A stretch of DNA of 16,171 nt. Source: Thermoplasmata archaeon (lineage in GTDB: Archaea > Thermoplasmatota > Thermoplasmata > RBG-16-68-12). The notes beneath the pieces were generated by a model. The model was not told where the DNA came from and did not search any database. It worked only from the letters and a program-made list of their open reading frames with translations. Position 1 is the first letter of the stretch. Every line of letters begins with the position of its first letter. Shown here in pieces: positions 115 to 16,171 of this stretch. The position numbers and the translations under genes are program-made. Where the stretch lies: positions 1 to 16,171 of the forward strand of contig DUJI01000103.1 of assembly GCA_013329855.1 (NCBI GenBank), in the 5' to 3' direction.

Positions 115-123
115 CGCGCTAGC

Positions 124-477: not shown

Positions 478-561
478 TACGGTGGGCCCAAACGATCGCA
501 CAACTCCAGCACACCGAGCGAAGGTGCTCCCGCCCCCGTTCCCCGAAGCCGGCAAGCGGCC

Positions 562-590: not shown

Positions 591-594
591 GCTC

Positions 595-604
595 AGGGGA
601 AGGG
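595..604 (+). promoter_or_regulatory. Shine-Dalgarno sequence of the aldo/keto reductase
   Basis: The purine run AGGGGAAGGG precedes the ATG at 606, with its AGGGG part 6 bases away. It settles the start against the longer frame that opens at a GTG at 474, overlapping the stop codon of the preceding gene. Confidence 0.6.
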
Positions 605-605
605 T

Positions 606-2354: not shown

Positions 2355-2428
2355 GTTTGTGTCTCTCGCTCCCTGTCTAGCGCATTCCTGCCATAAGGGC
2401 CTTCCGTCCTCCGGGTTCCTTCGGCGGC

Positions 2429-2680
2429 ATGCCTCGATACATCGACGTGCATAGCAACTTGAAAGGAGTCAAGCTGAGTGACGTGAAGGAAGCGCATGCG
2501 AAGGACCTCCAGGTGCAGGACAAGTACGGCGTGAAGTTCCTGAGGTTCTGGGTGGACGAGGGCCAAGGCACGATCTTCTGCCTCTCGGACGCGCCGGACC
2601 GGGAGGCGCCCCGGAAGGCCCATGACGACGCCCACGGGCTTCTCCCGGACGAGACGTACGAGGTGCTCGAGGGGGCCTGA
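2429..2680 (+). CDS. DUF4242 family protein (SCO4226-like, possible nickel-binding)
   Basis: An 83-residue ferredoxin-like alpha/beta protein. The family pattern is clear: an opening PRYIDVHSNL, a central helix SDVKEAHAKDLQVQDKYGV, the strand GTIFCLSDAPDREAPRKAHD, and the closing HGLLPDETYEV. The family's characterised member, Streptomyces SCO4226, binds nickel; whether this protein binds metal is not shown here, although H8, H23, H65 and H69 are candidate ligands. The likely start is the ATG at 2429, and the protein is full length for the family. The stop is 4 bases before the ATG of the exported cysteine-rich protein, so the two are probably co-transcribed. A weak AT-rich stretch (CCATAAGG, 2391-2398) could be the promoter box. 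Confidence 0.85.
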   Translation: MPRYIDVHSNLKGVKLSDVKEAHAKDLQVQDKYGVKFLRFWVDEGQGTIFCLSDAPDREAPRKAHDDAHGLLPDETYEVLEGA

Positions 2681-2684
2681 GCCG

Positions 2685-3287
2685 ATGGACCGGACGAACG
2701 GAACTCTCGCGGTGGCTCTGGCCGTGGTCTTCATCCTCGGCGCGTTCCTCGCGGTCCCCCTCGCCGCACGGGCCGCGGGGCCTTGCGAGGAAACCGCGTA
2801 CGCCAACGGCCAGCTCTTTTGCATCCACGTGACCAAGATCATCGCGAACCCCAGCGCCGGCCTCCTGGCCACGGCCGAGCCGATCTACATCGCCGCGTAC
2901 TTCCCCTTGCCCTCGGGCTGCGACACGAGCAACCCGTCCACCTGCGCGCCGGAGGCCCTGCCCTCCGGATACCAGCCCCTCTGCAACCCGTGCTTCCACG
3001 GCGGCGCGCTGGACGCCTTCCCCTACCATGACCACGTCATGGAGGGCGCTCCGGGCTTCGGGACCCAAGGCACCGTGGATGCGATGAAGGGCCCGTGGGT
3101 CCTGATTGTCGCGGCGTACGACCCCGCGTACAGCAACCAAGCGGGATTCACGCCGTTCAAGAGCACCGCGGGCATTGCCGCCGGCGAGTTGGCCGGGGAC
3201 TTCCAAGCCATCCACCCGGGTGCGGTGAATCCCTACGAGATCAACACGGGGGTCGTCCTCATCTTCGGCGTCCAGCCGCTCGGGTAG
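2685..3287 (+). CDS. Exported cysteine- and histidine-containing protein, function unknown
   Basis: A 200-residue protein I do not recognise. Residues 1-31 form a signal peptide: short basic start, hydrophobic core LAVALAVVFILGAFLAVPL, and an ARA-A type cleavage site. The mature part has six cysteines (C34, C46, C79, C87, C100, C103) that could make three disulfides. C100-x-x-C103-x-H105 followed by H115-x-H117 could instead bind a metal. The C-terminal half has regular strands (GPWVLIVAAYDP, TGVVLIFGVQ) suggesting a beta-rich extracellular domain. There is no second TM helix or S-layer anchor. The ATG at 2685 is preferred over the upstream frame, which starts inside the DUF4242 gene and would hide the signal peptide. 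It is co-oriented with that gene (4-base gap) and followed by a good terminator. Confidence 0.78.
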   Translation: MDRTNGTLAVALAVVFILGAFLAVPLAARAAGPCEETAYANGQLFCIHVTKIIANPSAGLLATAEPIYIAAYFPLPSGCDTSNPSTCAPEALPSGYQPLCNPCFHGGALDAFPYHDHVMEGAPGFGTQGTVDAMKGPWVLIVAAYDPAYSNQAGFTPFKSTAGIAAGELAGDFQAIHPGAVNPYEINTGVVLIFGVQPLG

Positions 3288-3314
3288 ACGCAAGACCACC
3301 TCGCCACAGAACTC

Positions 3315-3354
3315 GGTTCCCCGCGCCCTTTCCAGAGCGGGGGAACCCCCTTTT
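3315..3354 (+). terminator. Intrinsic-type terminator after the exported protein gene
   Basis: GGTTCCCC at 3315-3322 pairs with GGGGAACC at 3340-3347; two more G-C pairs form further in if one G bulges. A run of CCCCTTTT follows at 3347-3354. The stop codon is 28 bases upstream. The T-run is on the + side only, so it best serves the + strand gene, though it lies between convergent genes. Confidence 0.6.
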
Positions 3355-3375
3355 CCGACGCGCCACGGGAAGGGA

Positions 3376-4758
3376 CTAGCGGCCCGCCTCGTGCTCCTCC
3401 ACGGCCTTCGCGAAGATGTCCACTCCCTTGTCCGCCAGTTCCTCGGTGAGGACCAGGGGTGGCAGGAACCGCACCACGTTGTTGTAGTGTCCGCCCAGCT
3501 CGACGATCAGCCCTTGGGAGTAGCACCGTCTCCGGACGTCGCGGGCGATGTCCTCCGCCGGTTTCTTCGTCTTCTTGTCGTGGACGAACTCGATGCCGAT
3601 CATCAGGCCCCGTCCGCGCACGTCCCCCATGTGGCGGCTGCGTCCCTGGGCCTCCTCCAGCCGCTTCAGCATCCGCGCGCCCAGGCTCCGCGCGTGCTCG
3701 GGAAGACGGTGCTTCTCCATGAACTGGATCGCGGCGTGCCCGGCGGCCATGGCCACGGCCTGCCCCCGGAACGTCCCGATGTGGGATCCCGGCGGCCAGG
3801 TGTCGTACTCGTCCCGGCAGACGCAGGCGGAGAGGGGATAGCCGATGCCCCCGAGTCCCTTGGAGAGGGTCATCAGGTCGGGCGTGGTCCCGGAGTGCTC
3901 GCAGGCGAACATCGTCCCCGTCCGCCCGAGACCGGCCTGGATCTCGTCCATGATGAGGGGGACCGCGTAGTCGTCCGCGATCGTGCGCAACTCGGCCACG
4001 TACGCGTCGGGCGGGACGATCGACCCTCCCTCTCCCTGGATGGCCTCGACGAGCAGCGCGGCGGGCGTGACGATCCCGGAATGGGGGTCCTCCAGCATGT
4101 GCCGCACATACTCCGCACACTGCATGCAGCAGTCGTCCGGCGATCCGTCCGCCTTGCCGAAGGGGCAACGGTAGCAGTACGCGTAGGGCGCGAAGTGGAC
4201 CTCGGGGAGGAGGGGCAGGAAGTTCTCCTTGAACTTCTTCCCGCTGCTGAACGAGAGCGCGCCTGAGGTCATGCCGTGGTAGCCCCCCTCGAAGGCGAGG
4301 ACCCCGATCCGCTTCGTGTGGAACTTGGCGAGCTTCACGGCGGCCTCCACGGCGTCCGAGCCCGTGGGCCCGCCGAAGAACACCTTGGAACGGTCCCTCA
4401 TCCCTCCGGGCGCGATGGCCACGAGCTTCTGGATGAGGTCCAGCTTGGGCCGCGTCGGGAAGTCCAGCGCGTGGATCAGTTTCGTCTCCTGCGCGCGGAC
4501 CGCGTCGAGCACGTCCGGGTTGCAGTGCCCGACGTTGAGCACGCCGGCGCCTCCGAAGAAATCGATGTACACGTTCCCGTCCAGGTCCTTGATCGTCGCG
4601 CCTCGGCCCTCCTCGAAGGCCACGGGGATCGCCTTGGAGTACGACACGACGTTGCTCTCGAACCGCTGCTGGAGCGCGAGGGCCTCCCGCGACCTGGGGC
4701 CGGGGACGGGGGTCACCATCTTGGGCGCGTCCGGATAGCTCAACTCCTCGAACCGCAT
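3376..4758 (-). CDS. PLP-dependent class III aminotransferase
   Basis: A 460-residue fold-type I aminotransferase of the GABA/ornithine/diaminobutyrate class (omega-amino group transfer to 2-oxoglutarate or pyruvate). Visible signatures are GDxxxxDFxGG-like [13 protein letters not shown] (58-70), the PLP phosphate loop GGPTGSDA (129-136), D271 in [13 protein letters not shown], which contacts the PLP ring nitrogen, and K300 in [10 protein letters not shown], the Schiff-base lysine. The length is normal. A five-cysteine patch (C195-x-x-C198 then C210, C211-x-x-C214) is noteworthy. It starts 1 base after the aldehyde dehydrogenase stop, with only GGCGGG upstream, so translation is probably coupled. 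With that partner it suggests amine to semialdehyde to acid catabolism (GABA, diaminobutyrate, putrescine or lysine derivatives). The substrate cannot be assigned from sequence. Confidence 0.92.
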
Positions 4759-4759
4759 G

Positions 4760-6139
4760 TCATCCCGCCCCCTGATACACCACGAGCTTGATCTCCGTCA
4801 TCGCCTCGATGGCGAACCGGATCCCCTCGCGTCCGAGCCCGCTGTGCTTGAACCCGCCGAACGGCATGAAGTCGACGCGGAAGTCCGAGGTCTGGTTGAT
4901 GAGGACGCTCCCGTATTCAAGGCCCTGGACGCACTTCTGGGCGACGGCCAGGTCGTTCGTGAAGACGCCGGCCTGCAGGCCGTACGGCACCGAGTTGCTG
5001 AGCTCGATGGCCTCGTCGAGAGAAGAGATCCGGAAGAGGATCGTCACGGGCCCGAAAATCTCCTGTTGCGCGATTCTGCTCTTCGGGCTGACGCCCTCGA
5101 GGACGGTGGGCGGGTAGACGCTCCCCTGCCTTTCGCCCCCCGCCAGGACCTGCGCACCTCCCTGGATGGCCTCCTGCACCCAGTCCGCCACGCGCTGGGC
5201 CTCCCTTTCCGTGATCATGGGGCCGACGTCCGTGTCCTCGGAGAGCGGATTGCCAACCTTCAGCCGCCGGGTGGCCTCGAGGATCCGCTCCCGGACCTCG
5301 TCGTAGATCCTCGCATGGACGAGGACCCGCTGGGCGTGGATGCAGTTCTGGCCCTGGGACTCGAACGCGGCATCGACGACCTGGGGCACCGCGCGGTCCA
5401 GGTCCGCGTCTTCCCACAGGATCACGGGAGAGTTGCTGCCGAGTTCCATCGAGTACTTCTTGACCCCGCCCCGGCGGACGATCTCCGCCGCGGCCTCCGT
5501 GCCGCCGGTGAAGGACACGACCTTGATCCGGTCCTCGCGGAGCAGCTCCCGGACGGGTTCGCTGTCTCCCCGGGCGACGAGGACCTGGGCGCACTCGTCC
5601 GGGAGGCCTGCCGACCGGGTGAGGTCGACAAGGCGGATTGCGGAGAGCGGCGTAAGGAGGGAGGGCTTGAGGATCGTCGAGTTCCCGGACGCGATCGCCG
5701 GGCCGAGCTTGTGCGCGACGAGATTCAACGGATCGTTGAAGGGTGTGATCGCGAACACGACGCCGACGGGCTCTCGGACGTAGTAGGCGAACATCCCCTC
5801 TCCGCGGGGTTCCGCGTCGAACGGGACCGTCTCGCCGTGGATCCGCTTCGCTTCCTCCGCGGAGAACTTCATCGTGACGGCGGCCCGTCCCGCCTCCTTG
5901 AGCGAGTACTTGATCGGCTTGCCGGCCTCGATGGCGATTGTCTCGGCCAGCATCCTCGCGTTCTTCCGCAGGGATTCGGAGGTCGCCTCGAGGATCCGGG
6001 CCCGTTCGTGGACCGGCATTCTCCTCATCCTCTTCGATCCGACCAGCGCCTTGTTCAGCATGGCCCGCGCGGCCTCGACGCTCGTCTCCTCGAGCTCCTT
6101 GTGGACACGGTGGGTGAACTTATCCTGGACCTGGATCAT
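4760..6139 (-). CDS. NAD(P)+-dependent aldehyde dehydrogenase
   Basis: A 459-residue cytosolic aldehyde dehydrogenase. Family residues are present: N135 in AITPFNDPLN (oxyanion), K158 in TILKPS (cofactor), the nucleotide turn SFTGGTEAA (209-217), general base E232 in MELGSNSPV, and nucleophile C266 in SQGQNCIHAQR. The QNC-IHAQRVLV and PFNDPLNLVAHK segments resemble archaeal lactaldehyde/glycolaldehyde dehydrogenases and succinate-semialdehyde dehydrogenases. The frame stays open to a GTG at 6223, but the ATG at 6139 has a perfect AGGAGG nine bases upstream and gives the normal family length, so it is chosen. It is the first gene of a two-gene operon with the aminotransferase, so its substrate is probably the semialdehyde that enzyme makes. 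A weak AT-rich box (GATTAGATAG on the minus strand, about 6245-6255) is the best promoter candidate. Confidence 0.92.
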   Translation of the reverse strand: MIQVQDKFTHRVHKELEETSVEAARAMLNKALVGSKRMRRMPVHERARILEATSESLRKNARMLAETIAIEAGKPIKYSLKEAGRAAVTMKFSAEEAKRIHGETVPFDAEPRGEGMFAYYVREPVGVVFAITPFNDPLNLVAHKLGPAIASGNSTILKPSLLTPLSAIRLVDLTRSAGLPDECAQVLVARGDSEPVRELLREDRIKVVSFTGGTEAAAEIVRRGGVKKYSMELGSNSPVILWEDADLDRAVPQVVDAAFESQGQNCIHAQRVLVHARIYDEVRERILEATRRLKVGNPLSEDTDVGPMITEREAQRVADWVQEAIQGGAQVLAGGERQGSVYPPTVLEGVSPKSRIAQQEIFGPVTILFRISSLDEAIELSNSVPYGLQAGVFTNDLAVAQKCVQGLEYGSVLINQTSDFRVDFMPFGGFKHSGLGREGIRFAIEAMTEIKLVVYQGAG

Positions 6140-6148
6140 GTCCGACGA

Positions 6149-6154
6149 CCTCCT
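6149..6154 (-). promoter_or_regulatory. Shine-Dalgarno sequence AGGAGG of the aldehyde dehydrogenase
   Basis: A perfect anti-16S core AGGAGG on the minus strand, 9 bases before the ATG at 6139. It fixes the start of the dehydrogenase and implies a leadered transcript of roughly 80 bases if the AT-rich box near 6250 is the promoter. Confidence 0.7.
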
Positions 6155-6395
6155 GAGGATCAGGAATCGCGGCTCGGGTTGTTCTCTCTTCGCCTCGGGC
6201 GCGCCCCTGCGAGTCGAAGACACGTCGTCCGGACGGAGCGGGGGAACTATCTAATCAGGGTTCCGCTCGTACAGTCACGTCGCGGTCCTGCGATGGGTTG
6301 TGACGTGTCCCGGAGATTCTGGGGCGGCACCGGGCGGGGAGGGCATCGTCCATGCAGCCCCGAGGTTCGGTCTCGTCGCGCCGAGGCAAAGCGGC

Positions 6396-7163
6396 CTAGA
6401 GATCCCAGTCCTCCCTTGCCCAGTAGTAAGGCCTGTACGCCTCGGGATCGATCTTCGTCAGGACCTCTCCTGCTGGAGTCGTCATGACGACGTGGGGGGA
6501 GTAGCCCGCGAGGACGATCTCCTCAATCGGGATTTCGTGGATGGGATCATGTTCGGACTTGCCGAAGGACAGCTGACCGGTCCCGACCTGCGGGCTCCCC
6601 CAGTCGATGTCGGGTTGCAACTTGATCAGGATGGGCGGGTATTCGAAGCCCCGGTTGGTGACGCTCCGAAACGCCTTGATCAGGTACACCGCGGTGGACG
6701 GGAACTGTCCCCCGAAGGGGCCCTCGAGCCGGACGCTCAACCGAAGGAGGCGGATTCCCCGCCGGACGCAGGTCCCGGTGACCGTGACTCCGTCGACCTC
6801 CAATCGGACCGACTCGGCGATCTTCTTCGGGTAGCCCGATCGCTCCCTCCCTTGGAACATCGCGGCATCGTTCGTGAGGGGCATCGAGACGCAGTAGTTG
6901 CCGACCTCCCCCTGGTACTGAGCCGAGAGGAACACGGCGGCCTCGACGTAGGCCGGACTGTAGTTCGTCTGGCGGAACTCCGCCACGTAGGCCGTGCCGG
7001 TCGGGACTGCCGCCGGTTCCAGCGGAGGAGGGAGCACCCTTCGGACCACGTCGGGATCCGTTCGGAAGATGGCCAGCAGCATGCGCACATCGCTTGCGAT
7101 GGAGCCCCTCGAGAGTTGCTCCTCTCGCCGATCGAGTTCATCGCGCGCCCGGACAAGCCCCAT
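6396..7163 (-). CDS. Acetoacetate decarboxylase family protein
   Basis: A 255-residue member of the acetoacetate decarboxylase superfamily. The classical enzyme converts acetoacetate to acetone and CO2 through a lysine Schiff base. Here the signature RVLPPPLEP (42-50), the strand YVEAAVFLSAQYQG containing E74, and the active-site pair K113-K114 in SGYPKKIAE are all present. In the clostridial enzyme the adjacent lysines are the catalytic Schiff-base lysine and the neighbour that lowers its pKa. The length matches the family. Members with the same lysine pair can act as aldolases or dehydratases, so decarboxylation is likely but not proven. The start ATG at 7163 has GGGG five bases upstream, and a weak TATA-like GGTATAGACG lies near 7204-7213. 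It precedes the dehydrogenase/aminotransferase pair on the same strand by 256 bases, probably as a separate unit. Confidence 0.88.
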   Translation of the reverse strand: MGLVRARDELDRREEQLSRGSIASDVRMLLAIFRTDPDVVRRVLPPPLEPAAVPTGTAYVAEFRQTNYSPAYVEAAVFLSAQYQGEVGNYCVSMPLTNDAAMFQGRERSGYPKKIAESVRLEVDGVTVTGTCVRRGIRLLRLSVRLEGPFGGQFPSTAVYLIKAFRSVTNRGFEYPPILIKLQPDIDWGSPQVGTGQLSFGKSEHDPIHEIPIEEIVLAGYSPHVVMTTPAGEVLTKIDPEAYRPYYWAREDWDL

Positions 7164-7262
7164 GGTTCCCCGTGGCGTATCGAGGGCCGGACCTAAGAAT
7201 CAACCGTCTATACCGCGGCCGATCCGCGCGACTCGGGCCGGGGGCGGTTTCCTGCCCCAGGC

Positions 7263-8273
7263 TCAGAGCCCGATGCTGTTGATCACGCCGCCGGAGTTCG
7301 CGTCGACGACCAGGGCGATCTTGCCCCCCTGATGCTCGTAGCGGGCGAACCAGATGGGCGCGTGGAGCAGCTCCACGTCCGCGGCGTTCACGTCGGAATG
7401 CAGCTCCTGGATCATGTGGTACTGCCGGTGCGCCTTCTCCGATTGGAGTTGCGCGACGAGCGCCTTGGCCTCGTTGCGGGCCCCGTCTTCGCCGACGTCT
7501 CCGTTCAGAATCTTCACGCTCTTGGGGACCTTCGTCACGTCGAAGAACGTGCGGTCCTCCAGGTTGAACTGGTAGTCCCGGGGCTGGTGCTCGAAGAGCG
7601 CCTTGAGCGCGACGACGGGGAAGTTGTAGTTGTCCGCGAACTCGTAGCTCTTCCTCGCGCCGCCTCCGCCGATCCCGCCGCCGCCCATCATGGTGCCCAC
7701 CATGGTCCCGGCGACGAGCGGCCCGGCGAAGCCCATGCCGCCGCGACGGCCGCCCATGGCGCCGCCCATGAGGCCGAACAGCGCGGCCGTCGTCGCGATC
7801 TGCCCCGCCTCGACAGCCACGTCGCTCGCGATGATCGTGGTCCTCGCGGAGACGGAGACGATCCAGTACGGGACCAGGCTGAGGTTCATCTCCTCGAGCT
7901 TCGAGGTCTCCTGCAGGTGGCGGTGGAGGAGGCCGCGGTCCATCAGTTCGTGGAGCTTGGCCTCGACCCGGTCCTGGCTGCCGATCCGGATCGGGAGCAT
8001 GGTCTGCTTCTCGATCCCCTTCCAGCCGGCGTTCGCCAGCGTCACCCCGGATCCGCAATACGGGCAGGTGATCACCATCTCGCCGAACTGGGGCGAAATG
8101 GGCGCGCCGCAGTTCGGGCACTTCAGGGAGGTGGCACCCGTGGGCGCGAGGACGGGCGCCGACGGGGCCGTGGGCTGCGCCGTAGCCGCAGCCCCGAGCT
8201 TCGTCCCGCACTTGATGCAGAAATCCGCATTATCCGGAAGCTGGGTGCCGCACTTGGGGCAGTACAAGGCCAT
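7263..8273 (-). CDS. Double zinc-ribbon protein with glycine-rich hydrophobic centre
   Basis: A 336-residue protein of unknown function. The first zinc ribbon is C5-P-K-C8 with C19-I-K-C22. A Pro/Ala/Thr linker (28-49) leads to the second ribbon, C52-P-N-C55 with C70-P-Y-C73. Residues about 85-150 are an alpha/beta region (ending LSLVPYWIVSVSARTTI). About 158-206 is a Gly/Met/Ala-rich hydrophobic stretch with GG repeats that could insert in membrane as a tight hairpin or be a flexible linker. The C-terminal part (210-336) ends APIWFARYEHQGGKIALVVD-like, recalling the beta strands of PepSY/YcdF-type modules. ATG at 8273 with GGAG 5 bases upstream. Proteins of this build occur in archaea and some bacteria as uncharacterised zinc-ribbon proteins. 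Membrane association and metal binding are inference. Confidence 0.8.
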   Translation of the reverse strand: MALYCPKCGTQLPDNADFCIKCGTKLGAAATAQPTAPSAPVLAPTGATSLKCPNCGAPISPQFGEMVITCPYCGSGVTLANAGWKGIEKQTMLPIRIGSQDRVEAKLHELMDRGLLHRHLQETSKLEEMNLSLVPYWIVSVSARTTIIASDVAVEAGQIATTAALFGLMGGAMGGRRGGMGFAGPLVAGTMVGTMMGGGGIGGGGARKSYEFADNYNFPVVALKALFEHQPRDYQFNLEDRTFFDVTKVPKSVKILNGDVGEDGARNEAKALVAQLQSEKAHRQYHMIQELHSDVNAADVELLHAPIWFARYEHQGGKIALVVDANSGGVINSIGL

Positions 8274-8404
8274 CGCGTCTCCAGGTCACCCCTGACCCTG
8301 GGCGGTATTTGAGGATTCCCCCCGGCCCGTCCGTGGCGCGGAGGACCCCTCGTGCCCCTACGACGCGCGGCGGCCTTCCTTTGCGCAGGCTCCTCCCGGC
8401 ATCC

Positions 8405-8896
8405 TCACGTACGCGGGTCGAAGAGACTCCGCGTCACCTGGAGGAGATGCTGGGTGTTCACCTCCCCCGTGAGTCGGCCGTCCGGGTCGACCACGGGGAA
8501 GTCGTTGAGGTGCTCGTCGACGACCATCCGCACGAGGTCCACGATCTTGGTCTCGCGGGTCACGGGCTTCGACCGATCCATGAATCCGCGGACGCCCTCG
8601 GACTGCATGTCTCGGACGAAGCGGAAGAAGGAGATGACTCCCGCGGGCCGCTCTCCGGCCCGATAGGCCACGAGCCGCATCAGGGTCTCGATCCCGATGA
8701 CGCCCTTCAGCTTCCCGTCCCCGTCGACGACGTACGCCTTCCGGGTCGTCGAGGAGCGGAGGACGGCGTCCACCGCATCGCGGAGGGTCCCCTCCTCGGG
8801 GACGGTCTCCGCCTGGGTGACGATGACGTCGAACACGTCTCCGATCGCGGTCGCCGTCTCGAACCGTTCCGGGTCCTTCACATCGCCCTCGTACAT
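8405..8896 (-). CDS. Two-CBS-domain protein coupled to the MscS gene
   Basis: A 163-residue protein made of a CBS pair, the Bateman module that senses AMP, ATP, SAM or similar ligands. CBS1 covers about residues 20-82 (ETVPEEGTLRDAVDAVLR, then KAYVVDGDGKLKGVIGIETLM). An insert of some 20 residues follows (GVISFFRFVRDMQSEGVRGF), then CBS2 at about 105-160 (TKIVDLVRMVVDEHLNDFPVVD, then RLTGEVNTQHLLQ). The ATG at 8896 is chosen because GGTGAGG lies 5 bases upstream and the longer frame overlaps the mscS gene with Arg-rich sequence. That Shine-Dalgarno site contains the mscS stop codon, so the two genes are translationally linked. By analogy with channels and transporters that carry CBS domains, it may gate or tune the MscS protein. 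This is inference. Confidence 0.88.
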   Translation of the reverse strand: MYEGDVKDPERFETATAIGDVFDVIVTQAETVPEEGTLRDAVDAVLRSSTTRKAYVVDGDGKLKGVIGIETLMRLVAYRAGERPAGVISFFRFVRDMQSEGVRGFMDRSKPVTRETKIVDLVRMVVDEHLNDFPVVDPDGRLTGEVNTQHLLQVTRSLFDPRT

Positions 8897-8901
8897 GGAC
8901 G

Positions 8902-8908
8902 CCTCACC
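8902..8908 (-). promoter_or_regulatory. Shine-Dalgarno GGTGAGG of the CBS gene, embedding the mscS stop
   Basis: On the minus strand the sequence GGTGAGG carries the TGA stop of mscS (8906-8904) and ends 5 bases before the ATG at 8896. Ribosomes ending on mscS are placed to restart on the CBS gene, which supports fixed-ratio production of both proteins. Confidence 0.6.
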
Positions 8909-10523
8909 CGCCACCCGCCGCGCCTCGCCGATCTCGCTCCCGATCGGGGCCCGACGGCGGCGGGTTCTGGGACCGATCCTCAAGATCGAGCGGGGCCTTC
9001 TTCTGGCTCGCCTCTCCGCCCTCTTCCATGTGGACATGCAGGGTGCGCTGGGGGAACGGGATCTCGATGCCCGCCTCCGTGAAGGCCCGGTACACCTCCG
9101 TGTTGAGGTAGTCCTGCACGGTGAACCGGTCGTCGCGGTTCTTCAGCCAGACGAGGACGAAGAAGTCGAGGCTCGACTCGCTCATCGCGTCGAAACGGAG
9201 GATGGGCTTGTAGGGGTCGTCCTGGAGGATGAGGGGCGACCGCGCGATGATTTCTTGGAGGATCTCCTTGACCTGCCGCGGGTCCGACCCGTAGCCCACG
9301 CCGAACGTCTTCATCACGCGACCCTTGTCCTGGGGGTTTGTGAAATTGGCCACCTTGTCGCTCACGAGCTTGTTGTTGGGCAGGGTCACGATGCTCGCGT
9401 CGGAGAAGCGGAAGAAGCGGGTCGTCCGCATCCCGATGTGTCGGACCTGGACCCAGTCCCCGTCGCTCAGGATGATCACGTCGCCCTCCTGGAAGGGGCG
9501 GTCCGTGAGGAGGAAGATCCCGCTGAAGAAGTTGGAGAGGGAATCCTGGGCGGCGAACGCGACGACCATGCTCGTGACCACGCCGCCGGCCACGAACAGG
9601 GTGAGGTCGATGTTCAGGTACCCGAGGAGGAGCCCGAGTCCCGCCAAGCCGATGATGACCACCCCGAGCTTCTCCACGATGGGGACGAGGACGTCGTCGA
9701 TGTTGGATGCGGTCTTCTTCGCGATGCTGCGGCTGAGGCTGATCACGACGTCCCGGAAGAGGCGGTAGGCCACGTAGAGCCCGACCAGGGCGACGACGAC
9801 CTGGTACACGCTGAGGGCGTCCGCCTGGACCCAGGACGGCAGGTACCGGTCTAGCGCGGAGAGGGACTGGATCGTGCCGTAGAGGACCAGGAGCACGAGG
9901 ACCGGCGTCCGCAGGATCCGGATCGCGATGCGGCCCACGTCCGTCTTCGTCCGCTCCCCCAGCTTGCGCAGCAAGGGGACGAGGATCAGGAGGACGAGCC
10001 CGGCGAGACCGGCCCAGAGGACGATATCGAGGAGGAACACGCCCCCCTCGTTGTCCAGCGGGGACGGGAGGGGATTGGGGAAGAGGCCGAGGACCTGCTT
10101 CTCGGCGAAGGTGCCCGGGATCGTGACGGTCGCCGTGCGGGCAGCGAGGTAGATGATCGCGCCGTCCTCTAGGACGGTGAAGATCACGTTGACCGTGACG
10201 GACGCCGCGGCCTCGATCCGATCGGGAGCCTGCACGGTCACCCGGATGGCCACCGCATGGGACGGCGTGAGGTTGGCCACCTGGGACGGTGATGCCGCGA
10301 CCGTCCAGCCCGCCTCGGCGCTCGCGTTGACCGTGACGTCGTACGGGATGACGTCCACGTTACGGACGGTCCAGTTGAACGAGGTCGCTTCTCCCGGGGC
10401 CAGGGTCTTCTGATAGGTGTCGATGGACAGGATCTGAACAGGGTCCTGACCCCTCGCGGAGAGGGCCGCGGCTAGGAGCAACGCGGTGATGAGAACGGTG
10501 GAAAGGACGATCCCGCGGCGCAC
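8904..10523 (-). CDS. mscS: MscS-family mechanosensitive channel with exported Ig-like N-terminal domain
   Basis: A 539-residue small-conductance mechanosensitive channel homologue that releases solutes on hypo-osmotic shock. Residues 1-25 are a signal peptide. About 28-137 form a beta-sandwich of NEW3/CARDB type (KTLAPGEATSFNWTVRN, then AIRVTVQAP), expected outside the cell. TM segments lie at about 163-185, 205-222, 238-256 and 285-303. The MscS pore helix is at 308-330 (FVAGGVVTSMVVAFAAQ, with the G/A packing pattern), followed by DSLSNFFSGIFLLTDRPFQEGDVI and the cytosolic beta domain (to about 395) and alpha/beta vestibule (about 400-500). The last 35 residues are polar and disordered. 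It starts at GTG 10523 and the MRRG... signal peptide supports this. A TATA-like box is 25 bases upstream, implying a leaderless message. The CBS-domain gene follows 7 bases downstream. Confidence 0.93.
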   Translation of the reverse strand: MRRGIVLSTVLITALLLAAALSARGQDPVQILSIDTYQKTLAPGEATSFNWTVRNVDVIPYDVTVNASAEAGWTVAASPSQVANLTPSHAVAIRVTVQAPDRIEAAASVTVNVIFTVLEDGAIIYLAARTATVTIPGTFAEKQVLGLFPNPLPSPLDNEGGVFLLDIVLWAGLAGLVLLILVPLLRKLGERTKTDVGRIAIRILRTPVLVLLVLYGTIQSLSALDRYLPSWVQADALSVYQVVVALVGLYVAYRLFRDVVISLSRSIAKKTASNIDDVLVPIVEKLGVVIIGLAGLGLLLGYLNIDLTLFVAGGVVTSMVVAFAAQDSLSNFFSGIFLLTDRPFQEGDVIILSDGDWVQVRHIGMRTTRFFRFSDASIVTLPNNKLVSDKVANFTNPQDKGRVMKTFGVGYGSDPRQVKEILQEIIARSPLILQDDPYKPILRFDAMSESSLDFFVLVWLKNRDDRFTVQDYLNTEVYRAFTEAGIEIPFPQRTLHVHMEEGGEASQKKAPLDLEDRSQNPPPSGPDRERDRRGAAGGG

Positions 10524-10545
10524 GGGTACCCGATGAGGTCATCTG

Positions 10546-10555
10546 CAATAAGACC
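10546..10555 (-). promoter_or_regulatory. Candidate TATA box for mscS
   Basis: The minus strand reads GGTCTTATTG here, the only AT-rich patch upstream of mscS, centred about 25 bases before the GTG at 10523. The spacing fits an archaeal core promoter whose transcript begins at the start codon. Confidence 0.4.
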
Positions 10556-10568
10556 TTCGTTCATGCAG

Positions 10569-10584
10569 CAGGTTCGAGAACCTG
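10569..10584. promoter_or_regulatory. 7-bp inverted repeat upstream of the mscS promoter, possible operator
   Basis: CAGGTTC-GA-GAACCTG is a perfect 7-bp inverted repeat with a 2-base centre. It lies 14 bases upstream of the candidate TATA box of mscS. Such a short centre favours a DNA-bound dimeric regulator over an RNA hairpin. The binding protein is unknown. Confidence 0.4.
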
Positions 10585-10737
10585 GGGGAGGCCGCGCACG
10601 GGCCGCTCTCGGAGAACATCCGGCTGCGCGGCGGATTGCATGCGCCCCCGTGCGGACGTCGATGCGAGGAGCCGCGGCATCGTCCGGTCGCCATTGCGAC
10701 GCTCTTACTCGACGGCGCTCGCGCGCGGTTTCATGGG

Positions 10738-10771
10738 AAGAAAAAGGACCTCCGCGATGGGCTCGCGGAGG
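10738..10771 (-). terminator. Intrinsic-type terminator of the ATP-cone gene
   Basis: CCTCCGCGA at 10749-10757 and TCGCGGAGG at 10763-10771 form a perfect 9-bp stem with a 5-base loop. On the minus strand it is followed by TCC and TTTTTCTT (10746-10738). It lies 37 bases beyond the ATP-cone stop. A second small hairpin, CCCCA/TGGGG at 10780-10793, sits between the stop and this stem. Together they should end the transcript before the mscS promoter region. Confidence 0.65.
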
Positions 10772-10807
10772 CGTGCTGTCCCCATGCGTGGGGGAATGAG
10801 GGTTGGT

Positions 10808-11377
10808 TCAGTGTGGCTGTTGCGCTGGCATGGCCGGCTCGGCCTTCGCGGCCGGCGGGGTCGTGGTCGCGGCTTGGGCAGGCGGCGTAGGCCCGGTGGG
10901 CTGCGGTACGGTGTTCAGCCGGAACCGCACGGCGATCCGCGCGCCTTCTTGAGCGGCGAGCTGCTCGAGGACGGCCTTGTTCAGCCAGATTTCGCCGTAG
11001 TTCTTGTGGGCGGGCTCGACCCGCACGTCCGCCTTGCGCGCCCCGTGGTAGAGGCTCGCGAGGAGCCCCTTCTGGGGTTCGAAGATCTTCGCGAGGTGTT
11101 CGGAGACCCGCCCCGCGTCGACGGGGACCTGCTCGTTCATCTTGGCCTTCAGCCGGCGCGTCGAGAGGTACGAGTCCGCGATGGCGGCGTCCTCCTTCCG
11201 GAGCTCCTCGCCGACCTTGCGCCGAACCTCCTCGGTGGTAAGGCCCTCCGAGGGCTGGATTCTCTCGGCCACTCGCTTCGCGACCTCTTCCTTGGCCCCG
11301 GCCCGCGTCATGGACTCCTCGAGCTTGGAGCGGCTGAATTCTTGCATCTCACCGGAGCGCTTCTTCACATTGGTCAT
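10808..11377 (-). CDS. Stand-alone ATP-cone domain protein with Pro/Ala-rich tail
   Basis: A 189-residue protein. Residues 3-80 match the ATP-cone pattern: VKKRSGEMQEFSRSKLEESM, then AGAKEEVAKRVAERI, LTTEEVRRKVGEELRK and a closing AIADSYLSTRRL. This domain binds ATP/dATP in ribonucleotide reductases, NrdR and a few kinases. Here there is no zinc finger (so not NrdR), no reductase and no kinase. Residues 81-152 form an unassigned alpha/beta segment (AKIFEPQKGLLASLYHG, then YGEIWLNKAVLEQLAAQEG). The last 36 residues are Pro/Ala/Thr/Gln-rich and disordered. ATG at 11377 with GTGAG upstream. It has its own terminator and no same-operon partner, though the upstream TrmB-type gene is co-oriented 138 bases away. 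A nucleotide-sensing role is inferred from the domain; the target is unknown. Confidence 0.78.
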   Translation of the reverse strand: MTNVKKRSGEMQEFSRSKLEESMTRAGAKEEVAKRVAERIQPSEGLTTEEVRRKVGEELRKEDAAIADSYLSTRRLKAKMNEQVPVDAGRVSEHLAKIFEPQKGLLASLYHGARKADVRVEPAHKNYGEIWLNKAVLEQLAAQEGARIAVRFRLNTVPQPTGPTPPAQAATTTPPAAKAEPAMPAQQPH

Positions 11378-11515
11378 GATCTCACTCGGGTCCTTCTGGT
11401 CATCGAACGTTCATCAAGGTTCCTCTGTCACGGAGGCGAGTTCCTCCTCCAGGAGATCCGATGCGGCGACCCGCGCCCCCGCGGCCCGACGGCCGGGGAA
11501 GCCCGCGGCTCCCGT

Positions 11516-12289
11516 CTACGGGTGGGGCACGCCCGACACGGGAGTCGCCGCCCTCCAGATATGCCGCGCGACGCGGAGCATCGCCGTGGCGATGGCCGAA
11601 TCGTCCGTCCAGATCGCGACATCCTCCCCGCGGTTCGGGGAGCGGTCGTCCGGGATCGGATGGCTCAGGAGGAACTCCCGACCGTCGGCCACATGGAGGG
11701 CGACGGGCATGGGGAAGTCGATCCCGCGGACCTGGGCGAACTCGGACATCCCGAGGACGCTTTCCCGGTTCTCCGGGGTGAGATGGAAGGCGTACCGGAC
11801 GGAGACGCCCGCGCGCGTCCTCTCCCGGAGGGTCGTCCCCAGGGCGCGGGCCAGCCGCCACGGGCTGTTCGCGGTCCCGATCCCCAGGATCTCGTGCTGC
11901 GCCCGAGCATACATCTCGTCCGTCCGCGAGGCCACGTTCCGCCGGCCGTAGAGGGCCTCGAACCGGCCGCGCTGCGCGGGCAGAATCTCCTCCATGACGG
12001 CGAACTCACGGGAGATTCCCTCGAGCGACTCTTCGAGGGTTCGTGCCCGTCTCCGCTGCTCCTGGGCCACCTTCCGTAGGTACGCGGCCAAGGGCACGGG
12101 CCGGTACCGCAGCGGTCGCTCGGGCAGGACCTTGGTGAGCCCCTTCTCGTGCAGCTGCTGGAGGACGGAATAGACGCGGCTCCGAGGGACGTGCGACACC
12201 GCGGGGATCGCGGCCGCGGTCGTGCTGCCCAGCTCGAGGAGGGCCAGGTAGACGCGGGCCTGGTATTCCGTGAGGCCGTACCCCCTCAT
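11516..12289 (-). CDS. TrmB-family transcriptional regulator
   Basis: A 258-residue archaeal regulator. The N-terminal winged helix is plain: YGLTEYQARVYLALLELGSTTAAAIPAVSHVPRSRVYSVLQQLHEKGLTKVLPERPLRYRPV (residues 3-64). A basic coiled-coil linker follows (EQRRRARTLEESLEGISREF, about 75-100), then a TrmB C-terminal domain of the phospholipase-D-like fold (about 115-258; AQHEILGIGTANSPWRLARALGTTLRERTRAGVSVRY). TrmB proteins classically bind sugars and control transport and sugar metabolism; this shorter form's ligand is unknown. No in-frame start exists between the ATG at 12289 and a distant Arg-rich upstream extension, so 12289 is used, although it leaves an unusually short lead-in to the HTH. 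No sugar transporter is nearby. Its neighbours suggest a role in controlling the ion-transport genes, which is inference. Confidence 0.88.
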   Translation of the reverse strand: MRGYGLTEYQARVYLALLELGSTTAAAIPAVSHVPRSRVYSVLQQLHEKGLTKVLPERPLRYRPVPLAAYLRKVAQEQRRRARTLEESLEGISREFAVMEEILPAQRGRFEALYGRRNVASRTDEMYARAQHEILGIGTANSPWRLARALGTTLRERTRAGVSVRYAFHLTPENRESVLGMSEFAQVRGIDFPMPVALHVADGREFLLSHPIPDDRSPNRGEDVAIWTDDSAIATAMLRVARHIWRAATPVSGVPHP

Positions 12290-12512
12290 CCGCTGGATGC
12301 GTTCCTGATTGACCGGGATCCCGTTCCCCCCTGTCGCCTCGGCGTGGGCGTCCGGATGCGGAAGGAAGGACGACCTGTTGAGGGTTTGGGTTCTGGATGC
12401 GCGACGCCGTCGATGCCTCCCCCGGCAGGGACCTAGGCTTCGCGGCTCCCCTCGCGGGGGAAGGTCTGAGGGAGGGGCGCTCCTCCGCCCCAACCCGATC
12501 CGCGTGGCGGGG

Positions 12513-14153
12513 TCAGGGACCTCTGGATCGGGTGCGCGGGGGCGGCGTGCGGCGGGCCGCCGTGGACGGCGGCTTCTCGCTGATCTGGAGGTCGTCCACG
12601 TCCAGGTCCTTGAAGAGCTCGAGCACCTGCGTGCTGTAGACGGCGGGGCGGGGCGCGGCCGCCTCGCGGCCCAGGGCGCGCTCCGCAGAGACGACGCCCA
12701 CGGTCGTCGCGATCACCGTGAGGAGGATGATGAAGAACGCGGCGTTCAGGAACTGGGTCTCGTACGGCGCGAGGATGGAGGCGTAGTAGACGTCCCCGGG
12801 CGCGGACGGCGCGAGGAAGGAAGGGATCGTGAACGGCAGGGACGCGAGCACCGCGGCGGCGAGGCCCCGGCCCATGACGGACCACAGCAGCCGCCGCTCC
12901 GCGGGCGGCTTCCGGTGGACCCGCGCCGTTGCCCGGGACACGAGGACCCGGACCCCGATGATCCCGAGGAACACGAGGAGGATGCCCAGGAGGAACAGCC
13001 AGAAGGTCCCGTTGAGCATGTCGAGCAATGGAACCTGGGTCGTCACGGCCCAGGCCCCCGTGAACTGGAGGGAGAAGACGATGCCGAGGAACACGAAGAA
13101 GAACGTGCGGACCACGAAGGCGATCTCCCCGTGGAACTGCTTGATCCGCTCGTCCACGACGAACCGGGACTTCAGGTTCAGGTGCCGCTCCAGGGTCACG
13201 TGGTTCCCGAGGATGAGCCCGAACGTGAACGCCGCCATGGCGCCGCTTCCCCCCGCCAGCTCCCCCGTCGCGTAGACGACGAAGAGGAGGGCGATCGTGA
13301 GCATGTACGAGAACGGCTTGTCCTCGAGCTTCCTCAGGAGGAGGAACCAGCCCAGCCCGAAGGCCGACCCCACCGCGATCGCGACGAGGAAGGACTGGCC
13401 CAGGCTCGCGAAGACGGGCAGGACGGACGCGCCCGGTCCCTCGCGGAGGAACTGGATGAGCGCGAGGACCGTGACGACGCACAGGACGTCCGTCAGGACC
13501 GACTCGAGGGTGAGGACGATCTTCGTCTCCTCGCTGGCCCGCAGGGGCCGCACGACGCCGATGACCACGGCGCTGCTCGTTCCCCCGAGGATGGCCCCGA
13601 GGAGGAGGCCCACGGGCCACGGGTACCCCAGCACCGCGACCGTGATGAAGGAGATCACGAACACCGTGGTGACGAAGGCGAGGCCCGTCTGGAGCCCGGC
13701 GACCCCGAGGTACTTCGCGATCTCGGAGAGCCGCAGGTTGAGCCCGCCGTCGAAGAGGATGATCATGAGGGCGACCGCGGTGAAATAGGGCGTCGAAAAC
13801 TCGAGGACCGCGGCGGGCACGAGGGTGACGCCGAAGAACGTGACCGTGACGGGCCCCAGGAGCACCCCCAGGAAGATGAGGATGAGGAGGTCCGGGACCC
13901 GCGTCCGTTCGAAGATGAGGCCGGCCGCGAAGCCGATGGCGATGACGCCTCCTGCGGCCAGGAACGCGGTGAGCAGGCTCACGGACCCCGCGCCGGTCGA
14001 GGTGGCGTTGCCGGTCTGCAGCGCGCCCAGGAGCCCGGCCGGGTGGGGGATCGGAGGCACGGGTCGCGGTGCAACGCCTCCTGCGACGATGCAGGCGGCC
14101 GCGAGCACGAGGAGGAGGGCCGGGGCGAGCGCTGCGAGCGAGGTTCGTCCCAT
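12513..14153 (-). CDS. Monovalent cation:proton antiporter (CPA family)
   Basis: A 546-residue Na+/H+ or K+/H+ exchanger of the CPA superfamily (PF00999). After a signal-like hydrophobic segment (8-27) and a Pro-rich stretch come about 12 TM helices from residue 58 to about 480. Diagnostic segments are IMIILFDGGLNLRLSEI-like ALMIILFDGGLNLRLSE (128-144), the unwound-helix region GAILGGTSSAVVIG (186-199), and the ion-site helix TLESVLTDVLCVV (215-227) with E217 and D222. The residue before D222 is threonine, not the Asn of CPA1 or Asp of CPA2. The cytosolic tail (about 495-546) ends in a Pro/Arg-rich stretch. The ATG at 14153 lies about 26 bases from a perfect TATA box, so the message is probably leaderless. 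It has its own promoter, separate from the upstream DUF389 gene. Confidence 0.92.
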   Translation of the reverse strand: MGRTSLAALAPALLLVLAAACIVAGGVAPRPVPPIPHPAGLLGALQTGNATSTGAGSVSLLTAFLAAGGVIAIGFAAGLIFERTRVPDLLILIFLGVLLGPVTVTFFGVTLVPAAVLEFSTPYFTAVALMIILFDGGLNLRLSEIAKYLGVAGLQTGLAFVTTVFVISFITVAVLGYPWPVGLLLGAILGGTSSAVVIGVVRPLRASEETKIVLTLESVLTDVLCVVTVLALIQFLREGPGASVLPVFASLGQSFLVAIAVGSAFGLGWFLLLRKLEDKPFSYMLTIALLFVVYATGELAGGSGAMAAFTFGLILGNHVTLERHLNLKSRFVVDERIKQFHGEIAFVVRTFFFVFLGIVFSLQFTGAWAVTTQVPLLDMLNGTFWLFLLGILLVFLGIIGVRVLVSRATARVHRKPPAERRLLWSVMGRGLAAAVLASLPFTIPSFLAPSAPGDVYYASILAPYETQFLNAAFFIILLTVIATTVGVVSAERALGREAAAPRPAVYSTQVLELFKDLDVDDLQISEKPPSTAARRTPPPRTRSRGP

Positions 14154-14175
14154 CCGATTCGGATTCCCCCCACCG

Positions 14176-14183
14176 TATAAATA
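14176..14183 (-). promoter_or_regulatory. TATA box of the antiporter gene (leaderless promoter)
   Basis: The minus strand reads TATTTATA in an otherwise very GC-rich region. Its centre is 26-27 bases upstream of the antiporter ATG at 14153, the standard archaeal distance from TATA box to transcription start. Transcription should therefore begin at or next to the start codon. This is the clearest promoter in the window. Confidence 0.75.
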
Positions 14184-14189
14184 CGCATT

Positions 14190-14220
14190 GACCGCGGGGC
14201 GCCTCCGCGGTCTCCGGAGA
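14190..14220. promoter_or_regulatory. Paired palindromes between DUF389 stop and antiporter promoter
   Basis: GACCGCGG at 14190-14197 and CCGCGGTC at 14205-14212 are a perfect 8-bp inverted repeat with a 7-base loop. The 10-base palindrome TCTCCGGAGA occupies 14211-14220, sharing two bases with it. They fill the gap between the DUF389 stop (14224) and the TATA box (14176-14183). They may terminate the DUF389 transcript or act as an operator upstream of the antiporter promoter; no T-run follows the stem directly. Confidence 0.5.
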
Positions 14221-14223
14221 CGC

Positions 14224-15237
14224 TCACAGGGGCTGCGAGATGAGGATGACCGCGACCAGGACGGCGAGGAGGGCCACCCACAGGGGGATGGCGAACCAAG
14301 TCGCTCGCTTCGCGCGGTCCGCCTCCCACCATCGGAGGGGGTGGATTCCCTCCACGAGGAAGGTCATCACCCCCGCCAGGTTGATCCCGATCAGGTTCAC
14401 GAGAATCAGGAGGAGGGCCCCCGTCGCGGGCGCCCAGAGCCGGGCGCCGAGGAGCATGCCGAACGCGACCACGGGCGGGAGGAGGGCCACGGCCACCATG
14501 ACCCCGATCATGATGCTCGAGAGGCGCGTGGTCACGGACAGGCTCCCCGCAACTCCCGCGACGAGGGCCAGGGCGATGTCGGCGAGCCCGACATGGGTGC
14601 GCAAGGCGACTTCGGGGATCGAGGGATTCACGCCGGCGATGAGGCCGATCACCGCGGCGAAGGCGATCGCGAGGAAGATGCCGAGGGCGTTCGCGCGGAG
14701 GGCTCCCTTCGCGAGCGGGATGTCCCCCAGGGTGGTCGCCAGGGAGAGCGCGACGTTGGGCATGAGGAGCGGGGCGATGACCATCGCAGCGATCACCACG
14801 GCGATGCTGTTCGACAGCAGGCCGATTGCGGCGACCGCCGTGGAGAGGAGGACCAGGGTGACGAACGTCGAGGAGACGCGGCTGCCCTCCTGGACGTCCG
14901 AGTAGAGCTCCTCGCGGCTCACGCGGGCGATCCGGCGGCCCGCCCGCTTCGGCTCAACCGTCGCGGGCGGCGGTGTCGCCTCCTCTGCGGGAGGGCGGGG
15001 GAGCGTCGCGCTGACCTCGAGGAGCAGGACGCGGAACCCCTCGACCGCGGCGAACCGCTGCTCGAGGGCATCCAGGACGGGCTCCGTCTGCTCGAGGGAG
15101 ACGAGAACCCGGATCACGAGCTGGTTGTCCGGAAGTTCCTGGCGCCACTGGGCCAGGGCCCGCTGTCCCTGGAGGACGGCGTGCAGTTGTTCCACGTAGC
15201 GGCTGGGGAGGTGGATCTCCAGCAGGCGCAGGCTCAC
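14224..15237 (-). CDS. DUF389 family membrane protein (archaeal type)
   Basis: A 337-residue integral membrane protein of the DUF389 (TIGR00341-like) family, whose function is not established. Residues 1-75 are a cytosolic ferredoxin/ACT-like domain (SLRLLEIHLPSRYVEQLHAVL, then LVIRVLVSLEQTEPVLDAL). A Pro/Ala linker (77-95) follows, then about seven TM segments from 122 to the end. The family signature IAAMVIAPLLMPNVALSLATTLGD is present near 150-173, and VALLPPVVAFGMLLGARL and LILVNLIGINLAG lie further on. The GTG at 15237 is chosen because GGGGGAGG lies 8 bases upstream and the protein then begins with the family's typical first strand; an ATG at 15255 is the alternative. It is upstream of the antiporter on the same strand and divergent from the pore protein gene, which fits a membrane transport role. 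Confidence 0.88.
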   Translation of the reverse strand: MSLRLLEIHLPSRYVEQLHAVLQGQRALAQWRQELPDNQLVIRVLVSLEQTEPVLDALEQRFAAVEGFRVLLLEVSATLPRPPAEEATPPPATVEPKRAGRRIARVSREELYSDVQEGSRVSSTFVTLVLLSTAVAAIGLLSNSIAVVIAAMVIAPLLMPNVALSLATTLGDIPLAKGALRANALGIFLAIAFAAVIGLIAGVNPSIPEVALRTHVGLADIALALVAGVAGSLSVTTRLSSIMIGVMVAVALLPPVVAFGMLLGARLWAPATGALLLILVNLIGINLAGVMTFLVEGIHPLRWWEADRAKRATWFAIPLWVALLAVLVAVILISQPL

Positions 15238-15245
15238 GGCGAGGG

Positions 15246-15253
15246 CCTCCCCC
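15246..15253 (-). promoter_or_regulatory. Shine-Dalgarno GGGGGAGG of the DUF389 gene
   Basis: A strong purine-rich site on the minus strand, 8 bases before the GTG at 15237. It would overlap the alternative ATG at 15255-15253, which argues for the GTG start. Confidence 0.6.
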
Positions 15254-15441
15254 ATCCGCGGTTGGCGGTTCCATCGCATTGGCCCGGGGACTTCCCGCCC
15301 CACGGCCCGTCGTGGAGGGACGGATGCATCGAGGACCTCGCACAGGCGTCCCCGCTCAAGAGTCTTGCGCACCGCGCCCCTGGGGCCGGCGCGGGTCGCC
15401 TAAGCCAAGGCTCATGGCCACGTATCCCATCCGCGGGAAGC

Positions 15442-15804
15442 ATGGCACGCGTGATCGACTGGCTGTTCGACCGGGAGCTTGGGAGTACGGTCATCCTGGG
15501 CTCCACGGTCCTCGTGTTGCTCCTTGCGATGGGTGCGGTCTTCGTGCATGAGGTGGAAGGGTGGGGATGGGTGGACTCGGTGTACTTCATCGTCACCGCG
15601 GTCACGACCCTGGGCAGCAGCTTCGTGCCTCAGCACGAGATCACGAAGATCTTCCTCATCGTGTGGCTGCCCGTGGGGATCGGAGTCGGCTTCACCGTGC
15701 TGGCCTCCATCGGGGCGGCGATCCTGGACGCCCAGCGCCGTCGCCTCCGGCGCTTCCGTGCGGCCGTCGGGAGCCGCGAGGGCCATGGCGAGGGGCAATC
15801 CTAG
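15442..15804 (+). CDS. Two-TM ion-channel-like protein with altered selectivity filter
   Basis: A 120-residue protein with the layout of the Ion_trans_2 (KcsA/MthK-like) pore: TM1 at about 15-36, pore helix WGWVDSVYFIVTAVTT (41-56), filter region, and TM2 at about 67-95 (IFLIVWLPVGIGVGFTVLASIG), ending in a basic Arg-rich tail (QRRRLRRFR). Potassium channels have T-T-V-G-Y-G-D at the filter. Here the aligned residues are T55-T56-L57-G58-S59-S60-F61, so the Tyr and second Gly are lost. It has no RCK or cyclic-nucleotide domain. The ATG at 15442 has GGGAAG just upstream, and the long open frame before it is antisense shadow. It is divergent from the DUF389 gene. It may be a non-selective or non-conducting pore protein, or a subunit. 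Confidence is high for the fold and low for the ion. Confidence 0.8.
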   Translation: MARVIDWLFDRELGSTVILGSTVLVLLLAMGAVFVHEVEGWGWVDSVYFIVTAVTTLGSSFVPQHEITKIFLIVWLPVGIGVGFTVLASIGAAILDAQRRRLRRFRAAVGSREGHGEGQS

Positions 15805-15874
15805 GCTGCGAGTCCCTCTCCGCCGCACGCCTCCGCGCCGAGAACCTTTTCTGGCATGGCGCACTGGGTCCTCC

Positions 15875-16171
15875 GTGCTCGCCTTCGCCTCGTACGGCAT
15901 CGCGGGGGACCCGCCGGTCGTCCTCCTGCACGGCTGGCCTCTGGACCGTTCCCTCTGGGCGGCCGTCGCCTCGGACCTCGTGGCGGTCGGGTACCGCGTC
16001 GTCTGCCCCGATCTCCCCGGTTTCGGGGCGAGCCCCCCGCTTGCGCCGGACGACTGGACCGTGGAGGCGTACGCGGACGAGGTCGCCGCGCTCCTGGTGA
16101 GCCTCGGCTCCGGGCCCGGCCCCGTTGCGGGGCCCAGCTTCGGCGGCCACGTCCCGCCCGCCCCTGCCGAC
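15875..16171 (+). CDS. Alpha/beta hydrolase, partial at window end
   Basis: The first 99 residues of an alpha/beta-hydrolase fold enzyme; the 3' end is outside the window. The oxyanion-hole motif is VVLLHGWPLDRSLW (residues 15-28), the next strand and turn YRVVCPDLPGFGASPP, and the nucleophile elbow GPSFGGH (G-x-S-x-G). The Asp and His of the triad would lie beyond the end. The start is the GTG at 15875, which gives the usual short lead to the first strand; no in-frame ATG lies just before it. An AT-rich AACCTTTTC at 15842-15850 is about 28 bases upstream, so a leaderless message is possible. The substrate (ester, lactone, halide or peroxide) cannot be inferred. The last residues, HVPPAPAD, are less family-like than the expected small hydrophobic helix, possibly a sequence error at an end. 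Confidence 0.8.
   Translation, partial: MLAFASYGIAGDPPVVLLHGWPLDRSLWAAVASDLVAVGYRVVCPDLPGFGASPPLAPDDWTVEAYADEVAALLVSLGSGPGPVAGPSFGGHVPPAPAD

Follow-up and report, generated by a model that had tools for sequence, protein, structure and literature searches.

What does a potassium-channel-like pore become when its signature filter is not only altered but shortened? The question is raised by a gene in a stretch of 16,171 nucleotides (the window) from a Thermoplasmata archaeon (GTDB lineage RBG-16-68-12; GenBank assembly GCA_013329855.1, contig DUJI01000103.1, positions 1 to 16,171 of the forward strand). The gene, at 15442..15804 on the plus strand like all of its elements given below, encodes a pore-only channel protein of 120 amino acids plus stop, here called P0001. 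Its selectivity filter lacks the GYG of K+ channels and is one residue short, which makes P0001 a candidate for a non-selective cation pore of natural origin.

The protein matches PF07885 (Ion_trans_2) over residues 23-94 (E 9.5e-11), scoring 41.9 bits where the cut-off is 22.5, no other Pfam family exceeds its cut-off in the 120 residues, and NCBIfam gave only weak matches, far under cut-off, for five proteins. Fourteen protein clusters (P0002-P0015) show 67-83% local identity to it. An AlphaFold2 (AF2) model of the subunit, built on a 46-row alignment, places helices at residues 2-39, 43-55 and 66-114 in an M1 - pore helix - M2 layout, the best of its five models averaging 81 in the predicted local distance difference test (pLDDT). 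P0001 is thus a minimal pore-only member of the two-transmembrane-helix (2TM; Ion_trans_2) superfamily from a Thermoplasmata-type archaeon. The pore helix (residues 43-55; 15568..15606) is delimited by DSSP on the model, and by Pfam and AF2 the M2 helix (residues 66-114; 15637..15783) has a charged C-terminal end with no domain after it. The Pfam match and the helices on both sides of the filter bear out an earlier reading of the sequence alone, which had held the rest of the pore to be intact.

Bases 15604-15624 (ACG ACC CTG GGC AGC AGC TTC) encode T55 T56 L57 G58 S59 S60 F61, as the sequence-only reading had stated. It had also described GSS in place of GYG. The loss of GYG holds in the alignment with relatives; the one-to-one swap does not, since a deletion had been overlooked. 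Translation, alignment and residue count agree that the filter T55-P63 (TTLGSSFVP; 15604..15630) is one residue shorter than TTVGYGDLVP, and a simple GYG to GSS substitution is rejected. The alignment gap marking the missing residue falls between G58 and S59 (15613..15618). Because one residue is deleted, Tyr/Ser and Gly/Ser cannot be paired one to one, and S60 and F61 occupy the places of Asp and Leu. Counted from the YF pair of the pore helix up to the conserved Pro, the length was 14 residues in 12 of 78 proteins and 15 in 63; the other three were P0041 (without the Pro), P0069 (wrongly anchored) and P0060 (a fragment).

The short filter is common to 11 close relatives, 66-80% identical to P0001, in the form TTLG-SNLVP. 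Since these share the shortening, an error or a local mutation can be dismissed as its origin, and on the alignment GSS is the private version of GSN in P0001. Close homologues with GYG, named at the outset as evidence for a local change, were not found, the nearest GYGD relative (P0016) being 56% identical. At E<=1e-6 we retrieved 22 proteins: 12 short (P0001 with GSS, 11 with GSN), three of full length without GYG (P0008 GAAN, P0009 GSAN, P0010 VAQN) and seven with GYGD or AYGD. A wider search returned 77 proteins including these 22, with GYGD/GFGD in 41, AYGD/SYGD in 17 and GDPN in four, two-pore proteins being entered by their first pore. A search with the 12 short forms found 41 proteins and no additional short filter. 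In the TTVAYGD/TTVSYGD filters (P0017, P0018, P0020, P0022-P0031, P0034, P0035, P0037 and P0058, and loci L033, L034 and L046) the first filter Gly gives way to Ala or Ser ahead of an unchanged YGD.

A GTDB locus search with the family alignment, which may omit records near the window's genome, yielded 349 confirmed loci; among the best 80 none was short, the YF-to-Pro length being 15 in 77 and 16 in L104, with L052 and L086 wrongly anchored by the script. The same search with P0001 alone as query returned no related loci. A profile search of 400 genomes sampled from the class found 24 pores (E<=1e-8) in 23 genomes, 21 of these pores having G[YF]G. The three exceptions all belong to the window's genus: the window's GSS, VAQN in genome G020 and SYGD in G014. 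Across the whole order, profile matches occurred in 5 of 37 genomes, the one in G019 being a different, RCK-type protein. PF07885 detected five pores in 4 of the 22 family genomes, with GYG only in that of G019.

In two trees computed with the filter columns excluded (62 or 52 of the 77 proteins), the 15 non-GYG rows form one clade with support of 100/100, and the TxG[YF]G signature is absent from all 15. Among the 37 other family rows, YGD is kept in 33 and replaced by GDPN in four (P0050, P0052, P0054, P0057), a separate clade with 100/100 in both trees and the filter TTLGDPNFAP, which is reminiscent of the GDGN of NaK. In all ten rows of the outgroup the filter is GYGD or GFGD. GYGD is therefore the likely ancestral filter, as judged from these rows, with a rooting outside the family that relies on long branches (P0041 and P0056 are long too). 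Left out of the trees were fragments, fusions and extended or two-pore proteins (P0022, P0037, P0044, P0051, P0055, P0058-P0061), none of them in the non-GYG clade, while P0065, P0068, P0070, P0073, P0076 and P0077 were not picked as outgroup.

The altered filter is under constraint. T55, T56, L57, G58, S59, V62 and P63 are invariant in the 12 short forms, and N60 and L61 differ in P0001 alone. Between P0001 and its G020 counterpart, a simple Nei-Gojobori count gave dN 0.25, dS 0.97 and dN/dS of ~0.26, with dS near saturation. By these measures the filter change is not decay.

The sequence-only reading had regarded the change as specific to the filter, which does not survive the alignment. Sixteen columns set the 15 non-GYG rows apart from the other 37 (one residue in >80% of the 15, overlap <15%). 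The sharpest are D10-R11-E12 (DRE) in the N-terminal helix (15469..15477; 15/15 against 0/37), A53 at the pore-helix position adjoining the filter (15598..15600; Ala in 15/15 against Ser in 36 and Thr in one of 37) and W75 in M2 (15664..15666; Trp in 15/15 against Tyr in 36 and Trp in one of 37). A change confined to the filter, itself also shortened, is ruled out by these three. At the filter Asp column the clade has Asn in 14 rows and Ser in one, whereas the others have Asp in 33 and Asn in four. In the alignment to NaK, position 53 falls on a Thr (T60 by numbering). In the K+-selective NaK2K, Thr at T60 presumably holds the filter Tyr, and we take the filter Asp to be held by Y55, whose Tyr equivalent here (Y48) is retained. 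Since the clade is without GYG, Ser/Thr53 and the filter Asp, the Tyr, its pore-helix partner and the Asp appear to have been lost together. The AYGD/SYGD relatives keep both the filter Tyr and Ser53; the GDPN rows have lost the Tyr yet keep Ser53, so that the link between the two is strong, not absolute.

The shortened filter was compared with known structures. A sequence search of the Protein Data Bank (PDB) ranked 7oq1 (NaK S-ELM, which we take to be kainate-derived) first and 7oph (NaK S-DI) second among the best 60 of 95 matches. With the 12-short-form profile, 7oq1 scored 49.5 bits and 7oph 47.5, against 39.6 for 3ouf, a K+-selective NaK mutant; because the three have one common scaffold, these differences should reflect the filter. 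NaK S-ELM, S-DI and C-DI (7oq1, 7oph, 7oor), in which bacterial NaK was given glutamate-receptor filters, are likewise 2TM pore-only proteins of equal short filter length, TTVGSELMPQ in S-ELM against TTLGSSFVPQ/TTLGSNLVPQ in the archaea, with ~26-32% identity in structural alignments. They differ in carrying E (S-ELM) or D (S-DI) at the place of the archaeal N or S, and in being laboratory constructs whereas the archaeal proteins are natural. The Foldseek hits were NaK structures, led by a NaK-NavSulP chimera and, nearly level with it, NaK C-DI; VIA-align placed 7oq1 first, again close to a tie. The modelled subunit thus has the NaK fold, and structure comparison does not separate the filter types. 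According to PMC9976283, NaK C-DI carries residues of the AMPA receptor in place of DGNF; monovalent ions occupy S3/S4 in its TTV stretch, and Ca2+ sits in the wide region above. The mutants derived from glutamate receptors are credited there to Minniberger et al. 2023.

Beyond the sequence, shortening, clade, co-changed residues, constraint and one-subunit fold observed here, we consider it probable that P0001 is a naturally evolved non-selective cation pore, working by convergence like the NaK mimics of ionotropic glutamate receptors (iGluRs) and cyclic nucleotide-gated (CNG) channels, with conduction, selectivity and tetramer assembly predicted. Starting most likely from a TVGYGD K+ filter, one clade would have lost the filter Tyr, the adjoining pore-helix residue and the filter Asp, and 12 of its 15 known members are short by one residue, giving TTLG-S[N/S][L/F]VP. 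Four subunits would form the pore and keep the lower filter (the TTL carbonyls and Thr hydroxyl, equivalent to S3/S4), while the upper filter would open into a vestibule, wide, flexible and hydrated, with a Ser/Asn lining. With the lower sites only, Na+ and K+ would pass with little discrimination, and divalents might bind in the vestibule, as in NaK mutants with AMPA, kainate or CNG filters. A non-selective pore, among the outcomes suggested from the sequence at first, is therewith the likeliest predicted consequence of the filter change. The accompanying idea of a new filter class fares less evenly: no natural pore examined outside the 12 short forms had the short filter, but its length and pattern are those of the iGluR/CNG filters engineered into NaK.

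Several points weigh against this interpretation. The AF2 prediction covers one subunit only, with a predicted template-modelling score (pTM) of 0.60 and mean pLDDT of 66-81 over the five models, and K2P chains (potassium channel subfamily K member 2) stand third in both PDB rankings. Within the order, the non-GYG clade is represented in just 2 of 37 genomes. The divalent affinity of the mimics is not transferable, because the acidic residue of the iGluR type is Asn/Ser here, and some K+ preference is possible because the lower-filter Thr and Leu remain. The best tree requires two changes for the deletion; holding the 12 short rows as one group costs 1.14 log units, and at a p value of 0.449 in the approximately unbiased test (p-AU) neither order of deletion and GYG loss is preferred. 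A single deletion origin being neither shown nor rejected, we do not claim GAAN, GSAN and VAQN as true intermediates.

Among the alternatives, a non-conducting or regulatory subunit survives best, although we regard it as unlikely. Here the short loop would collapse and the protein would serve as a scaffold or sensor, or act on another pore as its dominant partner, in keeping with the general knowledge that GYG loss often abolishes K+ conduction and with the lack of a recognised gating domain in P0001. The conserved filter columns of the 12 short forms and the change of the adjoining pore-helix residue along with the filter speak against it, as does G020 (98% complete), in which a single PF07885 pore, non-GYG, was found at E<=0.001 and no partner pore of that family.

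A pore for Ca2+ or other divalents with a specific role, as opposed to a general monovalent leak, is improbable: NaK C-DI does bind Ca2+ in its widened upper filter (PMC9976283) and NaKTs is gated by Ca2+ at the filter (PMC5052707), but the acidic filter residue is Asn or Ser throughout the 15 rows. We give equally little credence to retained K+ selectivity, whereby the TTL sites would suffice and the upper filter be rearranged. T55, T56 and L57 are indeed invariant in the short rows, and the TTV[A/S]YGD lineage implies that the filter tolerates change. However, NaK has only sites S3 and S4 and lacks selectivity (PMC9822992), CNG channels, for which the ETPP NaK chimera is a model, pass alkali cations without discrimination (PMC6091977), and here the filter has lost its Tyr and Asp and the pore helix its adjoining hydroxyl. 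A sequencing error, frameshift or pseudogene is barely conceivable and already contradicted: the fragmentation of the assembly (315 contigs; completeness 65%) speaks for it, but the identical protein is present on 7 contigs, the deletion occurs in 11 other clusters from several databases, and the reading frame is intact with the low dN/dS noted above.

How, then, does the putative non-selective pore relate to known channels? CNG channels are built of six helices plus a cyclic-nucleotide domain, and iGluRs have a split ligand-binding domain and an inverted pore. In the 120 residues Pfam detected neither a cyclic-nucleotide-binding domain nor S1-S4, nor a ligand-binding domain around the pore. 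Being without a ligand domain, P0001 is neither an iGluR nor a CNG channel. The filter of NaK2CNG mutants (NaK-ETPP and others; 3k0d, 4r50) is short as in the 12 archaeal short forms, going by match ranges of equal length (67 and 67 residues, where NaK2K 3ouf has 67 and 68), but the CNG type is proline-rich and acidic and the archaeal one Ser/Asn. iGluRs, bacterial ones included, may have equal filter length and a G-S-x-x-x-P pattern, to judge by the NaK mimics: in an alignment that covers these mimics, P0001 runs without gaps through the filter of S-ELM and S-DI. Descent of iGluRs from K+-channel pores has been proposed (PMC12332018), and one survey lists bacterial iGluRs whose filter was not recognised (Group 2) and finds none in archaea (PMC2950845). 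The natural bacterial non-selective 2TM channels NaK and NaKTs are pore-only and also depart from GYG, but their filters (TVGDGN and LPMGNGPLSP; PMC5052707) are full-length with other residues: compared with that of NaK, the filter of P0001 is one residue shorter and lacks both the D and the second G. PMC13088309 connects the weak K+ selectivity of CNG, hyperpolarisation-activated cyclic nucleotide-gated (HCN) and NaK channels with a flexible filter. The GYGD relatives of the same archaeal family (P0016, P0021 and L008 among them) are 42-56% identical to P0001 with equal size and motifs, but have TTVGYGD, Ser53 and Tyr75 and no DRE. Among the matches listed from titles and abstract openings of open-licence PMC articles, no natural archaeal pore-only channel with such a filter appeared.

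The searches also recorded other unusual pores. The window's genome holds a second non-GYG pore, L112 (1501-2226 of contig C305 of G000), of RCK type (Ion_trans_2 + TrkA_N) with the filter MTLIGAANPHTF; its only other match in the 22 family genomes (E<=1e-10) is a protein of G019, 30% identical, with a GYGD filter. Odd bacterial 2TM filters among L093, L098, L104 and L105 comprise GSPG (Paucibacter), GDAN (Afipia, two) and SASTGLVP, one residue longer (Bhargavaea), and nine bacterial loci carry GLGD (L064, L069, L071, L073, L080, L085, L090, L091, L095). L034 (VBOR01000069.1), filed as Candidatus Eisenbacteria, has a pore nearly identical to L033 of Euryarchaeota isolate EA_2 and may be misbinned, since the record titles suggest related sampling. 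P0037 (204 residues) has an AYGD pore after a TATA-binding-protein-like segment (PF00352) in one frame, and may be a fusion or a prediction artefact.

In the window, the pore gene is flanked by a divergent DUF389 gene (14224-15372) and an alpha/beta hydrolase gene; a Na+/H+ exchanger-family protein (12513-14153) and an MscS-type channel (8904-10523), assigned like DUF389 by Pfam, also lie on the minus strand. These neighbours fit ion or osmotic balance and make an ion-homeostasis neighbourhood possible. In G020 an amidohydrolase gene adjoins the pore gene, with a short-chain dehydrogenase further off. No neighbour, MscS, exchanger and DUF389 included, was common to both in a scan of 10 of 54 G020 open reading frames, and a conserved operon is rejected on this one genome compared. 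Among the family genomes, TrkH and Kup were found in 0/22 each and KdpA in 3/22 (controls 11, 6 and 5 of 14), counts that did not settle the K+ uptake route of these cells.

The origin of the non-selective glutamate-receptor and CNG pores from K+ pores is an old question, approached in PMC6091977, PMC12332018 and PMC9976283 with engineered NaK and viral-channel chimeras. In one family of ~120-residue pores we find TVGYGD; TV[A/S]YGD; TLGDPN; TLG[A/S]AN and TLVAQN; and TLG-SN and TLG-SS. We tentatively suggest, with somewhat less confidence than for the pore itself, that this series may record the passage of a K+ pore to a shortened, glutamate-receptor-like non-selective pore, convergently and without a ligand or voltage domain, with the compensating pore-helix and M2 changes still visible. 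Close natural relatives, some keeping GYG and some not, some with the deletion and some of full length, allow direct comparison, the linked positions 53, 75 and DRE can be swapped, and in size the proteins come near NaK, of which many crystal structures exist. If the suggestion is true, these archaea would have taken an independent route to the filter used by animal receptors.
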